A stretch of DNA of 20,836 bases, taken from Candidatus Krumholzibacteriota bacterium. Its GTDB lineage: Bacteria; Krumholzibacteriota; Krumholzibacteriia; Krumholzibacteriales; Krumholzibacteriaceae. A program made the translations under genes and the position numbers. The stretch spans positions 1 to 20,836 of the forward strand of contig JAFGCX010000037.1 of NCBI GenBank assembly GCA_016932415.1, in the 5' to 3' direction. Shown here piece after piece: positions 13,588 through 20,836 of this stretch. The notes below the pieces were generated by a model. It saw nothing but the letters and a program-made list of their open reading frames with translations. It was not told the origin of the DNA and ran no database searches. Positions within the stretch are counted from its first letter, which is position 1; each line of letters opens with the position of its first letter.

Positions 13588-14496
13588 ATGATCAGGAAAA
13601 ATGAATATTTTGCTCTGACGGTCGGACTTGTCTCGATATCGTTCGCCGCGATATTCATCAAACTTGCGCAGGCGCCCGCTCCGGTCGTTTCCGCGTTGAG
13701 AATGATATTCTCAACGCTGCTGATAATCCCATACGCGATGTGTTCGAAAAATTTCAGAAGAGAGATTGCGTCCCTGTCGATCAACGACGCGGCGCTCCTT
13801 GTTTTCTCTGGAATACTGCTCGCCGCTCATTTTCTTTCATGGATAACTTCTCTTTCCCTTACCGGAATAACGAGCAGCATAGTCTTTGTAACGACGAGTC
13901 CGCTTTTTGTCGCTTTGTACACCGTGATCTTTTTCAGGGAGAAGGTGTCCGGGTCTTTCTGGGCCGGGCTGGTGATCGCGGCGACAGGCATTCTGATAAT
14001 GGCGGGAGGGAATATGCTTGCAGGTGGTGAGAATTGGAAGGGAGACCTGCTTGCCGTCGCCGGGGCAGTCTCTGCGGCCGGTTATTTCCTCGTCGGAAGC
14101 CGGCTAAGATCGAGATTATCGTTGATCACGTATATAATGCCCGTATATCTGATTTCGGCCGTGATCCTTACAGCGGCCGTCCCGGTCTGCGGGGAAAGAT
14201 TGACAGGTCATCCCGCGCGGAGTTACCTGTATTGTCTTCTTATGGCAGCCGTCTGCCAGCTGGCCGGGCATACCGTCTTCAACTGGGCTCTGAAAAGAGT
14301 AAAAGCGGCCGTTGTGACCCTTTCGATCCTCGGAGAACCGGTAGGAACGACCCTGCTGGCCTTTCTGATACTTGACAAGACCCCGGCTGCTGCGGAAATG
14401 GCAGGAGGGGTGTTTGTACTGGCCGGGATATTCACGGCGATCTATTGTAATCCTGGAGTGACGGTGGCGCGCCGGGCGAAGCAGGTCCGATCATAA
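13588..14496 (+). CDS. EamA/DMT-family transporter
   Basis: A 302-residue drug/metabolite-superfamily protein of the EamA type with ten predicted helices in two homologous halves (about residues 8-138 and 152-285). Typical family segments are visible: the first-half IVFVTTSPLFVALYTVIFFREK and the second-half WALKRVKAAVVTLSILGEPVGTTLLAFLILDKTP, the paired EamA signatures. Substrates range over amino acids, nucleosides and metabolites, so none can be named. GGGAG lies 13 bases before the ATG; a four-codon ATG-AGT-GCA-TGA frame in that interval ends on the start codon (ATGA at 13588) and may couple initiation. The stop overlaps the minus-strand TPR gene by six bases. Confidence 0.9.
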   Translation: MIRKNEYFALTVGLVSISFAAIFIKLAQAPAPVVSALRMIFSTLLIIPYAMCSKNFRREIASLSINDAALLVFSGILLAAHFLSWITSLSLTGITSSIVFVTTSPLFVALYTVIFFREKVSGSFWAGLVIAATGILIMAGGNMLAGGENWKGDLLAVAGAVSAAGYFLVGSRLRSRLSLITYIMPVYLISAVILTAAVPVCGERLTGHPARSYLYCLLMAAVCQLAGHTVFNWALKRVKAAVVTLSILGEPVGTTLLAFLILDKTPAAAEMAGGVFVLAGIFTAIYCNPGVTVARRAKQVRS

Positions 14497-15639
14497 GGTT
14501 ATAAGTATTTCCTTTATTTCTTCTATAAGTGCCCTGTCACCCTGCCATATCCTGATGAATTCCTCAAAAGATTCGCGGGCTTTTTCCTTTTGCCCCATTC
14601 GCATCCTCGTGTGACCGAGGTAGTACAGAGCCCTGGCCGGAAAATCTTCTTTTTTTATGAGTTTTTCAAGCAGTTTAACCCCATCTTCAAACCGGCTGGT
14701 GTTGATGTATACGATGCTCATACCAAGAGGTATGTCAGTATCGTCCGGATCGAGCATGTAAGCCCTGTCCCAGTATTCGAGAGCCTTTTCATAATTACCT
14801 GTCTTCATATATGTGTTGGCTATCCCGATCAGGGGACGCGAATCGTTCTTATCCTTGAAGATGGCGAGCTGAAAATATTTTTCCGCTTTCGAGAAATCTT
14901 TCAACTCGAAACAGGCATAGCCGAGATATGTGTAGAGTTCGCCGTCGGATCTGCCATTCTCTCCCGCAAAGTGCAGGGTCTCCAGGGCGTCTTCATACAT
15001 GTGTCTCGCGACCATGACCTTTCCCAGGAGCATCAGAAGGTCTTTATCGGTCGGGTAAGTATACCTGATCGAGAGGAGTTGCGCGTACGCTTCAGTGTAG
15101 TTACCCTGTTCATAGTAAGCTTCGGCGAGTATGAGATTGCCGCGAAGATCCCTCGTTGATATGTTCAGGGCGATAGTTGAATATTTTTCGGCTGTTTTGT
15201 ACTGTTTCTGCCTGAGGGCGCATGAAGCCAGGCCCAGGTACGGGGTGAAGAAATTCTTCCTTAAGGCGATCGCCATATTATACGATTTTTTCGCTTCAGA
15301 TATCCTGTCCTGTGCTTCAAGAGCCTGTCCCAGGGCGGCATGGATCTCGGGGTCGGAGTTTCCGGTCTTCGCCGCTTCCTTTAGATAGAATTCCGCTTTG
15401 CTGAACCTTTCGAGTTCGAGCATGGCAATTCCCAGATTATAATTGGTCTCAGTGTCATCGGGCCTTTCCTTCAGGACCAGTTCCCAATTTTTGACGGCCA
15501 GGTCGAGATCTCCCTTTTCGGCGTAATCAACGCCAAGATTATAATGTTTCAGAGTATCGTCGGAACAGGAAGAGAAGAGCCAGGTCGCCAGGACAATCGT
15601 CAATATAAGGATTCCCGAAATATTCCTTTTTAAGTTCAT
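14491..15639 (-). CDS. TPR repeat lipoprotein
   Basis: A 382-residue predicted lipoprotein. The signal peptide ends in LFSSC, with Cys25 as the acylation site. The rest is an array of tetratricopeptide repeats of about 34 residues, starting with HYNLGVDYAEKGDLDLAVKNWE and including TNYNLGIAMLELERFSKAEFYLKEA, GYACFELKDFSKAEKYFQLA and ANTYMKTGNYEKALEYWDRA, roughly nine to ten repeats to the C-terminus. Such proteins act as interaction scaffolds in the periplasm or outer membrane. AAGGA nine bases before the ATG supports the start. It overlaps the transporter tail-to-tail by six bases and is transcribed divergently from the hdr-mvh operon, sharing a 275-base regulatory gap. Confidence 0.88.
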   Translation of the reverse strand: MNLKRNISGILILTIVLATWLFSSCSDDTLKHYNLGVDYAEKGDLDLAVKNWELVLKERPDDTETNYNLGIAMLELERFSKAEFYLKEAAKTGNSDPEIHAALGQALEAQDRISEAKKSYNMAIALRKNFFTPYLGLASCALRQKQYKTAEKYSTIALNISTRDLRGNLILAEAYYEQGNYTEAYAQLLSIRYTYPTDKDLLMLLGKVMVARHMYEDALETLHFAGENGRSDGELYTYLGYACFELKDFSKAEKYFQLAIFKDKNDSRPLIGIANTYMKTGNYEKALEYWDRAYMLDPDDTDIPLGMSIVYINTSRFEDGVKLLEKLIKKEDFPARALYYLGHTRMRMGQKEKARESFEEFIRIWQGDRALIEEIKEILITL

Positions 15640-15810: not shown

Positions 15811-15838
15811 TTGACTTTTTGCTTTATAGGTGTAAAGT
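15811..15838 (+). promoter_or_regulatory. putative promoter of the hdr-mvh operon
   Basis: TTGACT (15811-15816) and TAAAGT (15833-15838) are separated by 16 bases and match the housekeeping consensus at five and four of six positions. The resulting leader of about 70 bases before hdrC contains a nine-T run and a dyad. No better candidate is seen on the plus strand of this gap. Confidence 0.5.
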
Positions 15839-15856
15839 GTTCTCTTGTATTCGTTA

Positions 15857-15881
15857 TTTTTTTTTGCGCGTTACCAGGTAA
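15857..15881 (+). promoter_or_regulatory. T tract and palindrome in the hdr leader
   Basis: Nine consecutive T (15857-15865) are followed by the palindrome TTACCAGGTAA (15871-15881), about 33 bases before the hdrC start. No stem precedes the T tract, so it is not a classical attenuator. The palindrome may be an operator just downstream of the predicted start of transcription. Function is inference. Confidence 0.35.
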
Positions 15882-15914
15882 TACGGGTCAACAAGACGAG
15901 AGGTAAGTGGTTAA

Positions 15915-16493
15915 ATGCTTGAAAAAGAAGTGTGTTACGAAGCCACTCTCGATCATGATTTTCTTGATGAGATCTATTCGCTACCGGGAGGGAAAGAGAT
16001 CAAGAGGTGCATCCAGTGCGGAACATGCACTGGGTCCTGCCCGCAGGCATGTCAGATGGATCACGCGCCGCGGAAGATCTTTTCACTGATCCGGGCGGGA
16101 TTTCGAGATGAAGTACTCCGGTCGAACACGGTATGGCTCTGTTCTTCATGCTATTCCTGCGCCGTGAGATGTCCCAAGGAGATCAAGATCACCGATGTGA
16201 TGTATGCGCTCAAGAGGCTTGCCATCAAGGAAGGAAAAGCGAAAAGAGGAAAGAAGGCGACGATCCTTTCCAGGAACTTCGTTGGGATGGTCAACAAATA
16301 TGGCCGGAATCACGAGACTGAACTGATGACAAGATATATCCTCGCGGCAGAACCGTTCAACCTGTTTAGTTTCGTCCCGCAGGGGATGAAACTGTTCGTA
16401 AACGGACGCCTGCCTGTCATGCCTCACAAGATCAGGAATCTCGATCAGCTGAGAAAGATAATGGAAAAAGTCGAAGAGCTGGGGGAGATATAG
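15915..16493 (+). CDS. hdrC: heterodisulfide reductase-type subunit C, two [4Fe-4S] clusters
   Basis: HdrC carries electrons between HdrA and HdrB through two [4Fe-4S] clusters. The 192-residue protein has both binding motifs: C32-C35-C38-C42-P and C76-C79-C82-C86-P, the second in VWLCSSCYSCAVRCP. The rest is helical, as in methanogen and bacterial HdrC. It lacks a membrane helix, so it belongs to the soluble HdrABC type rather than the membrane HdrE-linked type. GAGAGG about eleven bases before the ATG sets the start. It is the first gene of a six-gene unit (hdrC-hdrB-hdrA-mvhD-mvhG-mvhA) and its stop abuts the hdrB start. The physiological disulfide substrate in this bacterium is not known. 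Confidence 0.93.
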   Translation: MLEKEVCYEATLDHDFLDEIYSLPGGKEIKRCIQCGTCTGSCPQACQMDHAPRKIFSLIRAGFRDEVLRSNTVWLCSSCYSCAVRCPKEIKITDVMYALKRLAIKEGKAKRGKKATILSRNFVGMVNKYGRNHETELMTRYILAAEPFNLFSFVPQGMKLFVNGRLPVMPHKIRNLDQLRKIMEKVEELGEI

Positions 16494-17369
16494 ATGAAAT
16501 ATACATATTATCCAGGCTGTTCAGTCAAGGCCACCGCGAATCTCTACCAGGAATCGATCGACGCGATCGCGCCCGTTATCGGGATCGAGCTCGAGGAACT
16601 CGATGACTGGAACTGCTGCGGCGCCACTGCCTATATGTCAGTGAGAGAATTGATGAGTTTCGCGATCTCGGCTAGAAACCTTGCTCTGGCGGAAAAGCAT
16701 CACCGTGACCTGGTCACTCCATGCAGCGCCTGTTACCTGGTCCTTAACAAGACCAATCATTATTTCGAAGAATATCCAGATATGAGGAAAAAACTCGGTC
16801 AGGCACTGGAAGCCGGGGGCCTGAGTTACAGCGGTAATATCAGGGTCCGACACATACTCGATGTCATAGTAAACGACATAGGTATGGAGAGGATCTCATC
16901 GCTTGTAAAGAAGAGACTCGACGGGCTCAAGGTAGCTCCCTACTATGGCTGCCAGATCGTAAGGCCGGAAATGGGTTTTGACGATCCGGACGATCCGCAG
17001 TCTATGGACGTTCTTATAGAGACACTTGGAGCCGAAGCGGTGAAGTATTCCATGAAGACGAAGTGCTGCGGCGCCTCTCTCATGGGGACCGAGGAGAAGA
17101 TGGCACTCAAACTCTGCCGGGAATTGCTTATGGACGCGGAGAATAACGGAGCGCACTGCATAATCACTCTCTGCCCTCTTTGCCAGATGAACCTCGATAT
17201 ATATCAATCCAAAGTGAACAGTCTTTTTAAAACGAAATTCAATATCCCTGTCATTTACTTTTCGCAACTGATAGGCCTGGCCCTGGGAATCAAATCATCG
17301 GAGCTGGGGATGAAACGTCTTGGTGTCAAAGTATCCGGAGAAATGAAAAGAATTATTGAGGGAGCGTGA
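16494..17369 (+). CDS. hdrB: heterodisulfide reductase-type subunit B, catalytic CCG-domain protein
   Basis: HdrB is the subunit that reduces the disulfide in methanogens using two noncubane [4Fe-4S] clusters held by CCG domains. Both cysteine-rich domains are complete. The first has C9, C41-C42-G43 and C77-x-x-C80; the second has C153, C191-C192-G193 and C227-x-x-C230. The 291-residue length is normal. With all ligands present, heterodisulfide-like chemistry is structurally possible. In bacteria that lack coenzymes M and B the substrate may be another disulfide or a different acceptor; this is inference. GGGGGAG before the ATG serves as ribosome-binding site. The start follows the hdrC stop with no gap, indicating coupled expression. 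Confidence 0.95.
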   Translation: MKYTYYPGCSVKATANLYQESIDAIAPVIGIELEELDDWNCCGATAYMSVRELMSFAISARNLALAEKHHRDLVTPCSACYLVLNKTNHYFEEYPDMRKKLGQALEAGGLSYSGNIRVRHILDVIVNDIGMERISSLVKKRLDGLKVAPYYGCQIVRPEMGFDDPDDPQSMDVLIETLGAEAVKYSMKTKCCGASLMGTEEKMALKLCRELLMDAENNGAHCIITLCPLCQMNLDIYQSKVNSLFKTKFNIPVIYFSQLIGLALGIKSSELGMKRLGVKVSGEMKRIIEGA

Positions 17370-17370
17370 A

Positions 17371-19356
17371 ATGGCTGTACGCATAGGTGTTTACATCTGC
17401 CACTGCGGGACTAACATCGCCGGCAAGGTCAATATCGACGAGGTCGTCGAATTTACCAGGAGCCTCGAGAATGTTTCGCTCGTGAGAGATTACAAATTCA
17501 TGTGTTCTGATCCCGGTCAGGCTCTCCTTCAGAAAGATGTAGAGGATGGTCTGATCGACAGAGTCGTAGTCGCCTCGTGTTCTCCTCTCATGCACGAGAA
17601 CACATTCAGGAAGGCGACCGAGAGGGGCGGATTGAATCCGTACCTCTTCACGATGGCTAATATAAGGGAACAGTGTTCCTGGGTGCATATCGATTCAGAT
17701 CGGACGACTGATAAAGCGAAAGATCTGATATCGGCAGCGGTAAGAAGGGCGTTCCTGCTCGAGCCGCTGACGAAACGGGAAGTTCCGATCAATCCGAGGA
17801 CTGTCGTCATAGGGGGGGGTATTGCAGGCATTCAGGCTGCCCTCGATCTCGCCGAAGCTGGCAAGGAAGTCGTGCTTGTCGAAAGAGAACCTTCGATCGG
17901 GGGGCATATGGCGAAGTTCGACAAGACGTTCCCGACCCTCGACTGCTCCGCCTGTATTCTCACGCCGAGGATGGTCTCCGTAGGGCAGCATCCGAAGATA
18001 GAATTGATGACGTATTCCGAGGTAGAGGATGTCAGCGGATATGTCGGCAATTTCAATATCCGCGTGAGAAAAAAAGCGAGGTATGTCGATCCGGAACTCT
18101 GCAACGGATGCGGAGCATGCTGGGAGAAATGTCCAGGTACGAGGGTCCCGAGAAAAGGGAATGTGCACGAAAAACTCTCCCTCGGACCGACCACATCGAT
18201 ATATATGCCTTTCATGCAGGCAGTCCCCGCTATTCCCGTCATTGATACGACGACATGTCTTTACTTCAAGGATGACAAGCACGCCTGCGGCCTCTGCGCC
18301 AAGGAATGCGAAAGAGGCGCTATCAAATATGACATGGAAGACGAACTTGTCGATTTTGAAGTGGGAAATATAATCCTGGCGACCGGATTCCAGACATTCG
18401 ATCCGTCAGTGATTACACGCTATGGATACGGGAAGTTGGATAACATCATGACAGCGATCGAATTCGAGATCATGAACTGCGCGTCGGGATCGACGGGCGG
18501 AAAGATCCAGATGGCTGACGGCAGCGAACCGAAATCGATCGGTATAGTCCATTGCGTGGGAAGCAGGGATAACCATTATCATGATTATTGTTCGAGAGTA
18601 TGCTGCATGTATTCCCTGAAGTATTCGCATCTGATCAAGGAAAAGACCGATGCCGAAGTATACGAGTTCTATATCGATATGAGGTGTTTCGGTAAAGGGT
18701 ACGAGGAGTTCTATGACAGGCTTCTCACTGAGGATGTAAGGTTCATCAGGGGCAAGGTCGCCGAGATAACCGATGTCGCGGTCAATGACGCTGAAAAAGG
18801 AAAACTTATTGTCAGGGTCGAAGACACGCTTGTGGGCAGCGTAAGGCGGGTCCCGCTCGATATGGTCGTTCTCAGCACCGGGCTTGAAGGGCACGATACT
18901 CTTCCGGCGATCGCGAAAAAATGCAGCGTATCGATAGGAAGAGACGGGTTTATAATCGAGAAACATCCGAAACTCGGTCCGGTATCGACCGCCACCGATG
19001 GCGTCTTCATCGCTGGAGCCTGCCAGTCTCCAAAAGATATTCCAGATACTGTCGCGCAGGCATCAGCAGCTTCAAGCGCCGTGCTTTCGATGATCACAAG
19101 GGAAAAGATCGAGATCGAAGCGGCTACCGCGGAAGTCGATGAAGAAAAGTGTTCAGGGTGCAAATTGTGCAATACGCTATGTCCGTATCTCGCGGTGAAA
19201 TACGATGAAGAAAAGGGTGTATCTGTCGTCAATCAGGCGCTATGCAAGGGTTGCGGGACATGCGTGGCAGGATGTCCCAGCGGCGCGATATCAGCAAAGC
19301 ACTTTGAGGATCGACAGATATTCGCAGAAATAGAAGGTATCTTTTCAGGATTATAA
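17371..19356 (+). CDS. hdrA: heterodisulfide reductase-type subunit A, FAD/iron-sulfur electron-bifurcating protein
   Basis: HdrA carries the FAD that splits electron pairs between ferredoxin and HdrB in the HdrABC-MvhAGD complex. The 661-residue protein shows an N-terminal domain starting YICHCG (C10, C12), the FAD dinucleotide motif GGGIAG (148-153), a ferredoxin insert with C244-C247-C250-C254, a cysteine group in CSRVCCMYSLK, a second FAD-domain half (VFIAGACQSPKDIPDT), and two C-terminal [4Fe-4S] motifs at C594-C597-C600-C604 and C625-C628-C631-C635. These final clusters are the expected ferredoxin exit. No UGA (selenocysteine) codon interrupts it. The start is the ATG at 17371, with GAGGGAG about six bases upstream; a TTG at 17356 lies inside hdrB and is rejected. 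A run of eight G (17812-17819) lies in the FAD motif. Confidence 0.97.
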   Translation: MAVRIGVYICHCGTNIAGKVNIDEVVEFTRSLENVSLVRDYKFMCSDPGQALLQKDVEDGLIDRVVVASCSPLMHENTFRKATERGGLNPYLFTMANIREQCSWVHIDSDRTTDKAKDLISAAVRRAFLLEPLTKREVPINPRTVVIGGGIAGIQAALDLAEAGKEVVLVEREPSIGGHMAKFDKTFPTLDCSACILTPRMVSVGQHPKIELMTYSEVEDVSGYVGNFNIRVRKKARYVDPELCNGCGACWEKCPGTRVPRKGNVHEKLSLGPTTSIYMPFMQAVPAIPVIDTTTCLYFKDDKHACGLCAKECERGAIKYDMEDELVDFEVGNIILATGFQTFDPSVITRYGYGKLDNIMTAIEFEIMNCASGSTGGKIQMADGSEPKSIGIVHCVGSRDNHYHDYCSRVCCMYSLKYSHLIKEKTDAEVYEFYIDMRCFGKGYEEFYDRLLTEDVRFIRGKVAEITDVAVNDAEKGKLIVRVEDTLVGSVRRVPLDMVVLSTGLEGHDTLPAIAKKCSVSIGRDGFIIEKHPKLGPVSTATDGVFIAGACQSPKDIPDTVAQASAASSAVLSMITREKIEIEAATAEVDEEKCSGCKLCNTLCPYLAVKYDEEKGVSVVNQALCKGCGTCVAGCPSGAISAKHFEDRQIFAEIEGIFSGL

Positions 19357-19388
19357 AACCTGTTTCCAAGCCCGAAGGGATAATAGAT

Positions 19389-19877
19389 ATGTCATTTGAA
19401 CCGAAGATCGTTGGTTTCCTCTGCAACTGGTGTTCCTACACCGGAGCAGATCTTGCGGGAACCGCGAGGATAAAGTATTCGCCCAATATCCGATCGATAA
19501 GGGTGATGTGCAGCGGAAGGATTGAGCCGACTTTCATAGTGAAAGCTTTATACGAGGGGGCTGACGGTGTTCTGATAGCGGGATGCCATCCAGGCGACTG
19601 TCATTACCAGGAAGGTAACTATAAGGCTCTGAGAAGGCACAGGATGCTGAGGCTGATCCTCCCAGGTTTCGGCATTGAACCTGAAAGAGTCCGGCTTGAA
19701 TGGGTCGCAGCTTCAGAAGGGGAGAGATTCGCGACGATCGTGGACGAATTTACCGAACAGATCAGGAAGCTTGGCCCCCTTAACGTCCGCGATTCACTTG
19801 AAATGATCCTGAGTGAGGATGTCATTTTAAATCTCGATTCAGCCATGGAAGAAGGCGGTGACGCCAATGAAGCTTAA
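19389..19877 (+). CDS. mvhD: MvhD-type [2Fe-2S] subunit linking hydrogenase to HdrA
   Basis: MvhD (also named VhuD) is the small iron-sulfur protein that hands electrons from the MvhAG hydrogenase to HdrA. The 162-residue sequence has the family pattern: FLCNWCSYTGADLAG with C12 and C15, then VMCSGRIEP with C41, and GCHPGDCHY with C66 and C71, which ligate a [2Fe-2S] cluster. The hydrophobic core ALYEGADGVLIAG is also typical. All five cysteines are encoded as cysteine, not selenocysteine. GAAGGGA eight bases before the ATG sets the start, 32 bases after hdrA, the widest gap in the operon. The last eleven bases overlap the start of mvhG. Confidence 0.93.
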   Translation: MSFEPKIVGFLCNWCSYTGADLAGTARIKYSPNIRSIRVMCSGRIEPTFIVKALYEGADGVLIAGCHPGDCHYQEGNYKALRRHRMLRLILPGFGIEPERVRLEWVAASEGERFATIVDEFTEQIRKLGPLNVRDSLEMILSEDVILNLDSAMEEGGDANEA

Positions 19878-20820
19878 AACTGGAATATATTGGGGAGCAG
19901 GTTGCGGTGGATGCGATGTGGCGGTTCTGGACGTACACGAGAAGATCCTTACTGTGGCCGAGAAAATGGAACTTCTGTTCTGGCCGATCGCGATGGACTT
20001 CAAATACGAAGACGTCGAAGCGATGGATGACAACGAGTTCGACATCGTGATGTATAACGGGGGGATAAGAAACTCCGAGAATGAAGAGATAGCGAGGCTT
20101 CTCAGGAGAAAATCCAAGGTGATGGTCGCTCTCGGAGCCTGCGCTCACATCGGCGGGCTTATCGCGATGGCGAATTTTCATACAAAAGATTCCATATTGA
20201 ACAGGGTATATCTGGAGACTGAATCGACAGATAATCATGATGCCGTGATTCCGCAGGAAAAATGGGTAAATGGGGAAGAGGAACTTACGCTGCCAAGATT
20301 CCATAATCTTGTGAAGACGCTTGATCAGGTCGTCGATGTCGACTATTACATTCCCGGGTGCCCGCCGGTCCCGGCTCAGATCGTCAACGCCCTGTCGCAG
20401 GTCTGGGAAGGAAAACTTCCCCCGAAAGGATCTGTCATCGGAGCCGGAGCACGCACGCTCTGCGATGAATGTCCTCGGAAAAAGGAAGAAAAAACAATCA
20501 CGGGATTCAAACGTCCCGTGGAGATGATCCCGGAACCTGAAAAATGTCTTCTTGAACAAGGCCTCCTATGCCTTGGACCGGTCACCAGGGAAGGCTGCGG
20601 GGCAAGATGCATAAATACAAACGTCCCTTGCAGGGGATGTTACGGACCTCTCGAAGGAGTGCGTGATCAGGGCGTAAGGATGCTCAGCGCTCTCGCTTCA
20701 GTACTTGATCCGAAGGAAGAAAAGGAAATAGATGAACTGATCAGCCAGATCGCCGATCCACTGAGGACATTTTACAGGTTCAGCGCAGCTGCTTCCATAC
20801 TGAGGAGGAAAAAAGTATGA
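19867..20820 (+). CDS. mvhG: MvhG-type hydrogenase small (iron-sulfur) subunit
   Basis: Small subunit of an F420-non-reducing [NiFe] hydrogenase of group 3c. The 317-residue protein has the proximal-cluster ligands of the NADH-dehydrogenase 20 kDa/hydrogenase family: C13-x-x-C16, C92 in GACAHIGG and C165 in PGCPP. Further cysteines, C199-x-x-C202 and then C227, C235, C244, C248, C255 and C258, fit additional medial and distal clusters as MvhG has. No Tat signal is present, so it acts in the cytoplasm, as the complex requires. The start is the ATG at 19867, not the GTG at 19858, because the protein then begins at the usual KTGIYWGAGCGGC. It overlaps mvhD by eleven bases and its stop overlaps the next ATG (ATGA). 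Confidence 0.92.
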   Translation: MKLKTGIYWGAGCGGCDVAVLDVHEKILTVAEKMELLFWPIAMDFKYEDVEAMDDNEFDIVMYNGGIRNSENEEIARLLRRKSKVMVALGACAHIGGLIAMANFHTKDSILNRVYLETESTDNHDAVIPQEKWVNGEEELTLPRFHNLVKTLDQVVDVDYYIPGCPPVPAQIVNALSQVWEGKLPPKGSVIGAGARTLCDECPRKKEEKTITGFKRPVEMIPEPEKCLLEQGLLCLGPVTREGCGARCINTNVPCRGCYGPLEGVRDQGVRMLSALASVLDPKEEKEIDELISQIADPLRTFYRFSAAASILRRKKV

Positions 20821-20836
20821 GGCGCGTAGAAATAGA
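20817..20836 (+). CDS. mvhA: hydrogenase large subunit (MvhA-like), 5' fragment
   Basis: Only the first 20 bases lie in the window: ATG overlapping the mvhG stop, encoding MRRVEI. A good ribosome-binding site, GAGGAGG, is about seven bases upstream (20802-20808). By position and the MRxxxI start this is probably the [NiFe] catalytic large subunit that completes the Mvh module. Metal-binding cysteines cannot be checked here. The alternative is another downstream gene of the operon. Confidence 0.6.

Follow-up and report, generated by a model that had tools for sequence, protein, structure and literature searches.

The question raised by this locus is whether a run of hdr and mvh genes at the end of a bacterial contig encodes a complete hydrogen-driven, electron-bifurcating heterodisulfide reductase and, if so, which acceptor its HdrB subunit would reduce. 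The window analysed here (20,836 bases) is the entire contig C37 of a Krumholzibacteriota MAG of 3.11 Mb, which consists of 38 contigs and is 95.5% complete. In this window, the genes hdrC, hdrB, hdrA, mvhD, and mvhG lie head to tail on the forward strand between positions 15915 and 20820, and mvhA starts at 20817. The spacings from hdrC to mvhA are 0, 1, 32, −11, and −4 bases. Each of the five subunits encoded within the window was assigned by strong family and structure matches, far beyond chance, and most of the length of each is covered by the alignment with a solved homologue. The preliminary description of this DNA had called the operon complete. The five genes and their spacings are indeed as claimed, but the operon is complete only when the next contig is added, since the contig that makes up the window ends inside mvhA.

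The region upstream of hdrC contains a weak sigma-70-like promoter match (TTGACT-16-TAAAGT, 9 of 12 matches) at 15811–15838 on the forward strand. Its first base coincides with the start of the stretch delimited in the preliminary description. The scan of this region found three such sites against 1.1 expected in shuffled sequences, which is not above chance, and the match is no evidence of a functional promoter. Genes for a TPR protein (14491–15639) and an EamA-like transporter (13588–14496) are located further upstream, and apparently the same two neighbours precede the operon in another genome, G022.

As mvhA is represented in the window by just six codons plus two bases (20817–20836, forward strand, MRRVEI-GA, overlapping the mvhG stop by four bases), the rest of this gene was looked for in the other contigs of the genome. 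The matches to the PF00374 profile were confined to two contigs. One of them, C24, starts with CCAATCACC and has a frame that is open from the first base and begins with PITRLEGHGKI. A relative of the same genus, L033, runs unbroken through the junction (GTAGAAATAGATCCAATCACC), which indicates that exactly one base, a T in L033, is missing between C37 and C24. The part of MvhA on C24 has 479 amino acids (frame 1–1440), and the best solved match of the protein is the MvhA of PDB 5odc (5odc_F, E = 6e-117). Both [NiFe] ligand motifs are intact (L1, RICGVCPAAHH; L2, LYDPCFSCATH), and a C-terminal extension follows DPCFSCATH. Group 3c hydrogenases are characterised by the motifs ICGxCxxxH and DPCxxCATH, the published L2 being AYDPC (PMC6085437). 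Both motifs of this MvhA fit the group, with LYDPC in place of AYDPC, and the genes for the small subunit, mvhG, and for the [2Fe-2S] subunit, mvhD, share the mvhA operon, as expected of group 3c.

Downstream of mvhA, C24 carries genes for a maturation protease (TIGR00072) and for hypA, hypB, hypC, and hypD, all of which score over the cut-off; hypE was found apart from them on contig C16. It had been proposed beforehand that a next gene lacking the [NiFe] ligands, or a genome lacking the maturation genes, would point to an Hdr module fed by another donor. Since the ligands are intact and the protease and HypA–E genes are present, neither is the case here.

The small subunit of the [NiFe] hydrogenase, MvhG, is encoded at 19867–20820 on the forward strand (317 aa; PF01058; NF045875 VhuG, E = 8e-70; 5odc_E, E = 4e-72). 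Its start was set at the ATG at 19867; a GTG at 19858 also lies in the open frame. The closest sequence matches of MvhG are 87% identical (a sequence recorded as bacterium) and 85% identical (a MAG called Candidatus Krumholzibacteriota). The mvhD gene (19389–19877, forward strand; 162 aa; PF02662, E = 4e-55; 8rvu_F, E = 2e-56) encodes the [2Fe-2S] link of the hydrogenase to HdrA. Its best NCBIfam model is HdrA2. The alignments of MvhD and MvhG with their solved counterparts include the cysteines of both proteins. The C-terminal tail of MvhD (19775–19877) extends approximately 25–30 residues past the solved homologues, varies among relatives, and overlaps the start of mvhG.

The hdrA gene (17371–19356, forward strand) encodes a FAD-binding protein of 661 aa with inserted and C-terminal ferredoxin domains. 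It is 52.8% identical to the solved HdrA of Methanothermococcus thermolithotrophicus (5odc_A, E = 1.7e-216), and every cluster cysteine of the latter is matched. The alignment of the two proteins places Glu366 (codon 18466–18468) and Lys417 (codon 18619–18621), both on the forward strand, at the positions of Glu356 and Lys409 of the M. thermolithotrophicus protein. This pair of residues separates the bifurcating from the non-bifurcating HdrA flavins (PMC9430772). It thus supports the earlier proposal that hydrogen oxidation, or its reverse, would be coupled to ferredoxin reduction, the activity and its direction being predictions. The inserted domain is reported to bind ferredoxin in the archaeal complex and to be missing from the HdrA of Sporomusa and Moorella (PMC9430772). 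In one cluster of this domain the first two cysteines are separated as C-x9-C; this long spacing is no oddity, as it is common in bacterial HdrA proteins and also occurs in some archaea. The best NCBIfam model for HdrA is again HdrA2, at 804 bits, far under its equivalog cut-off of 1100.

The remaining two subunits would carry electrons to the acceptor. HdrC (15915–16493, forward strand; 192 aa; 8rvv_C, E = 2e-24) has two CxxCxxCxxxC motifs, CIQCGTCTGSCP and CSSCYSCAVRCP, for two [4Fe-4S] clusters. HdrB (16494–17369, forward strand; 291 aa; PF02754; 8rvv_B and 5odc_B) contains two CCG domains with the noncubane cluster ligands C9, C41, C42, C77, and C80 in the first and C153, C191, C192, C227, and C230 in the second. 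All ten cysteines are invariant among the 27 HdrB rows aligned. Together with the HdrA cysteines and the alignments of MvhD and MvhG, these motifs bear out the previous statement that the cluster ligands of the operon are intact. Against the methanogen equivalog models of NCBIfam, both proteins score below the cut-off: HdrC reaches 96.3 of 160 bits (TIGR03290, E = 1.6e-27), and HdrB 214.5 of 345.15 bits. The residues near the HdrB clusters (DWNCCGAT, PGCS, and CPLCQMNL) are common to other bacterial Hdr–Mvh operons and differ throughout from those of four solved methanogen HdrBs.

This HdrB is the only one found in the genome, and its acceptor was left unnamed in the preliminary description. 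That position is now better supported, as neither ComA nor DsrC nor DsrA was found. The ten conserved ligands and the homology of HdrB itself speak for the heterodisulfide CoM-S-S-CoB, the acceptor of the methanogen enzyme. We consider this reading highly improbable, as ComA has no match in the 95.5% complete genome and the cluster-flanking residues are unlike those of the four solved methanogen HdrBs. The CCG motif alone is not exclusive, though: Methanofastidiosum, which is recorded as a methanogen, has an Mvh-linked HdrB that is also of the CCG form. This weakens the motif difference as a proof of a non-CoM substrate. The motif points to a class of HdrB and, judged alone, says little against CoM-S-S-CoB as the substrate.

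For sulfur-metabolising bacteria, the proposed acceptor is the disulfide or trisulfide of a protein such as DsrC; the title of a paper cited in PMC12542636 terms DsrC the bacterial heterodisulfide, and DsrC is present elsewhere in the phylum. We searched for it across the Krumholzibacteriota. DsrC was found in none of the 25 genomes of the order, the host included, yet in 42 others of the phylum, and no genome of the order has a DsrA that exceeds the cut-off of the family model. Across the phylum, the distribution of DsrC is almost the complement of that of the operon. As far as a genome that is 95.5% complete and 24 relatives can show, canonical DsrC was refuted as the acceptor, and we give donation to DsrC or a protein like it hardly any credence.

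By analogy with the acetogens Moorella and Sporomusa, a methylene-THF reductase of the MetVF type could also receive the electrons of HdrBC. In acetogens, the HdrBCA–MvhD genes cluster with metVF, and pull-downs show contact between HdrB and MetF (PMC9430772). The genome under study has no stand-alone MetF: its sole MTHFR domain is fused to a homocysteine S-methyltransferase on contig C1, and neither metF nor metV was found near the operon. This acceptor, therefore, seems very unlikely.

The searches for ComA, DsrC, and a stand-alone MetF having found none of them, the acceptor is neither DsrC nor a CoM-S-S-CoB that depends on ComA for its synthesis, and it is probably not methylene-THF either; the known candidates are, thus, largely excluded. 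With no DsrC in the family and no ComA or stand-alone MetF detected in the genome, we tentatively suggest, as one possibility that the odds do not favour, that the whole family depends on a hydrogen-linked bifurcating Hdr whose acceptor is an undescribed bacterial disulfide, either a small thiol or a small protein.

To see how widely the operon is distributed, we surveyed 80 genomes of Krumholzibacteriota, namely 20 of the same family, 5 of a second family in the same order, and 55 from elsewhere in the phylum. MvhG was found in 17, 3, and 4 of these genomes, respectively. The gene order hdrC-hdrB-hdrA-mvhD-mvhG-mvhA-protease-hypA-hypB-hypD is kept in the relatives with long contigs. In quick trees, the HdrB and MvhG of the family each form one clade among bacterial sequences (SH-aLRT 99 and 100), and so the phylogenetic placement suggested in the preliminary description yielded family-specific clades. 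One genome of the second family lies inside both clades, and G014, a member of the family, lies outside. These clades fit inheritance within the family. The dN/dS values relative to L033 are 0.015–0.066, with synonymous sites near saturation, and indicate that the operon is under strong purifying selection.

The survey also revealed other Hdr arrangements in the phylum. In L147 (G022, contig C110, 6434–12926), which belongs to the family, a second hdrC-hdrB-hdrA set contains a split HdrA. Its halves are separated by NuoE-like and NuoF-like genes, and the latter half carries a fused N-terminus that is Fer2/HoxU-like. This set directly precedes mvhD-mvhG-mvhA and looks like an NADH-linked bifurcating Hdr. 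L161 (G079, contig C64, 9065–12544) has one uninterrupted frame for an HdrA of 1159 aa, in the middle of which there is an apparent GltD-like (NAD(P)H/FAD) insertion; it adjoins mvhDGA and resembles in its make-up the Moorella HdrA of PMC9430772. L136, L139, and L140, from other Krumholzibacteriota, contain HdrB relatives with a CCPDP first motif, which the tree groups with methanogen HdrBs; all three adjoin hdrC-like genes, and two of them also adjoin mvhD-like genes.

The subunit make-up, the ligands, the bifurcation residues, the maturation genes, and the conservation are features of the sequence itself, and we hold it very probable that the operon encodes a cytoplasmic bifurcating HdrABC–MvhADG complex with a group 3c [NiFe] hydrogenase and a disulfide-like acceptor. 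From these features we infer that the subunits assemble and are active, in which direction the complex works, and what sort of acceptor it reduces. In such a complex, MvhA and MvhG would take electrons from H2 and the [2Fe-2S] cluster of MvhD would hand them to the FAD of HdrA, which would split each electron pair. One electron would reach ferredoxin by way of the HdrA ferredoxin domains, and the other would travel through HdrC and the two noncubane clusters of HdrB to the disulfide-like acceptor. When H2 is high, the complex would provide ferredoxin in its reduced form, on which POR enzymes, Rnf, or an Mbh-like hydrogenase could draw. At low H2, it could run in reverse and form H2 from reduced ferredoxin and a thiol. 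The sub-cut-off scores of HdrA, HdrB, and HdrC against the NCBIfam equivalogs of the methanogen enzyme count against this reading.

The ferredoxin-dependent enzymes that the earlier proposal called for were found in the genome, which encodes several POR enzymes, an Rnf, and an Mbh-like hydrogenase. No group-3-type hydrogenase other than that of the operon was found in the genome. The second contig with PF00374 matches encodes a group 4 hydrogenase, the closest solved structure of which is Mbh. This locus (L007, contig C3, 67–4331) lies on a 4.3-kb contig, has intact CGIC and DPCYSC motifs, and also carries NuoC-like, NuoL/Mrp-like, and Mrp-like subunits. This set of POR enzymes, Rnf, and Mbh-like hydrogenase is suggestive of an anaerobe that lives by fermentation, with ferredoxin as the hub. 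It is conceivable, albeit on balance doubtful, that the complex runs mainly in reverse in vivo and confurcates electrons of POR-derived ferredoxin and a thiol to H2 as a fermentative sink. Such an anaerobe would fit this direction, no [FeFe] hydrogenase was found in the genome, and the enzymes of group 3c have been described as working in both directions (PMC8092238). Meanwhile, a second route to H2 seems wasteful because the Mbh-like hydrogenase could already vent the electrons of ferredoxin as H2 with ion pumping, and no thiol donor is known. In the forward direction, the operon suggests H2-dependent ferredoxin reduction in Krumholzibacteriota, of which the titles and abstract openings of nine papers naming the phylum together with hydrogenases make no mention.

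Complexes of this kind are known from several sources. HdrABC–MvhADG has been reported in several bacterial phyla (PMC8092238, PMC12542636, and PMC6085437), HdrABC with a group 3c hydrogenase in particular in Sumerlaeota and WOR-3 (PMC8092238 and PMC12542636). No tested acceptor is named in these three reports. The present lineage narrows the list of acceptors for the bacterial complexes, as its genome has a sole HdrB, the operon is family-wide, and the candidates are largely excluded.

With the methanogen HdrABC–MvhAGD of M. thermolithotrophicus (5odc) and Methanothermobacter marburgensis, the complex predicted here shares the six subunits, all cluster ligands, the glutamate–lysine pair, and the inserted ferredoxin domain. 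It differs from them in that its genes form one operon together with the maturation genes, its MvhD tail is longer, its HdrB has DWNCCGAT where the methanogens have ASCCPAPG, and no ComA was found in its genome. The HdrCBA–MvhD module is common to the HdrCBA–MvhD–MetVF of the acetogens Moorella and Sporomusa ovata (PMC9430772). Unlike the latter, the present operon includes a hydrogenase and has no MetVF neighbour, and its HdrA includes the inserted ferredoxin domain absent from the proteins of Sporomusa and Moorella. In HdrA2/HdrB2/HdrC2 of Methanosarcina acetivorans, HdrA2 is a fused HdrA–MvhD, and its model tops the NCBIfam matches of both HdrA and MvhD; here, these two are separate genes with a hydrogenase attached. 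The bacterial sets of HdrABC and group 3c hydrogenase from Sumerlaeota, WOR-3, Clostridia, Frackibacter, and Chloroflexota have the same genes, often in the same hdrC-hdrB-hdrA-mvhD-mvhG-mvhA order. The operon differs from them in sequence only, its family forming a clade of its own in the trees of HdrB and of MvhG. Thus, judging from its genes, the complex most likely belongs to a kind already reported in methanogens and several bacterial phyla.
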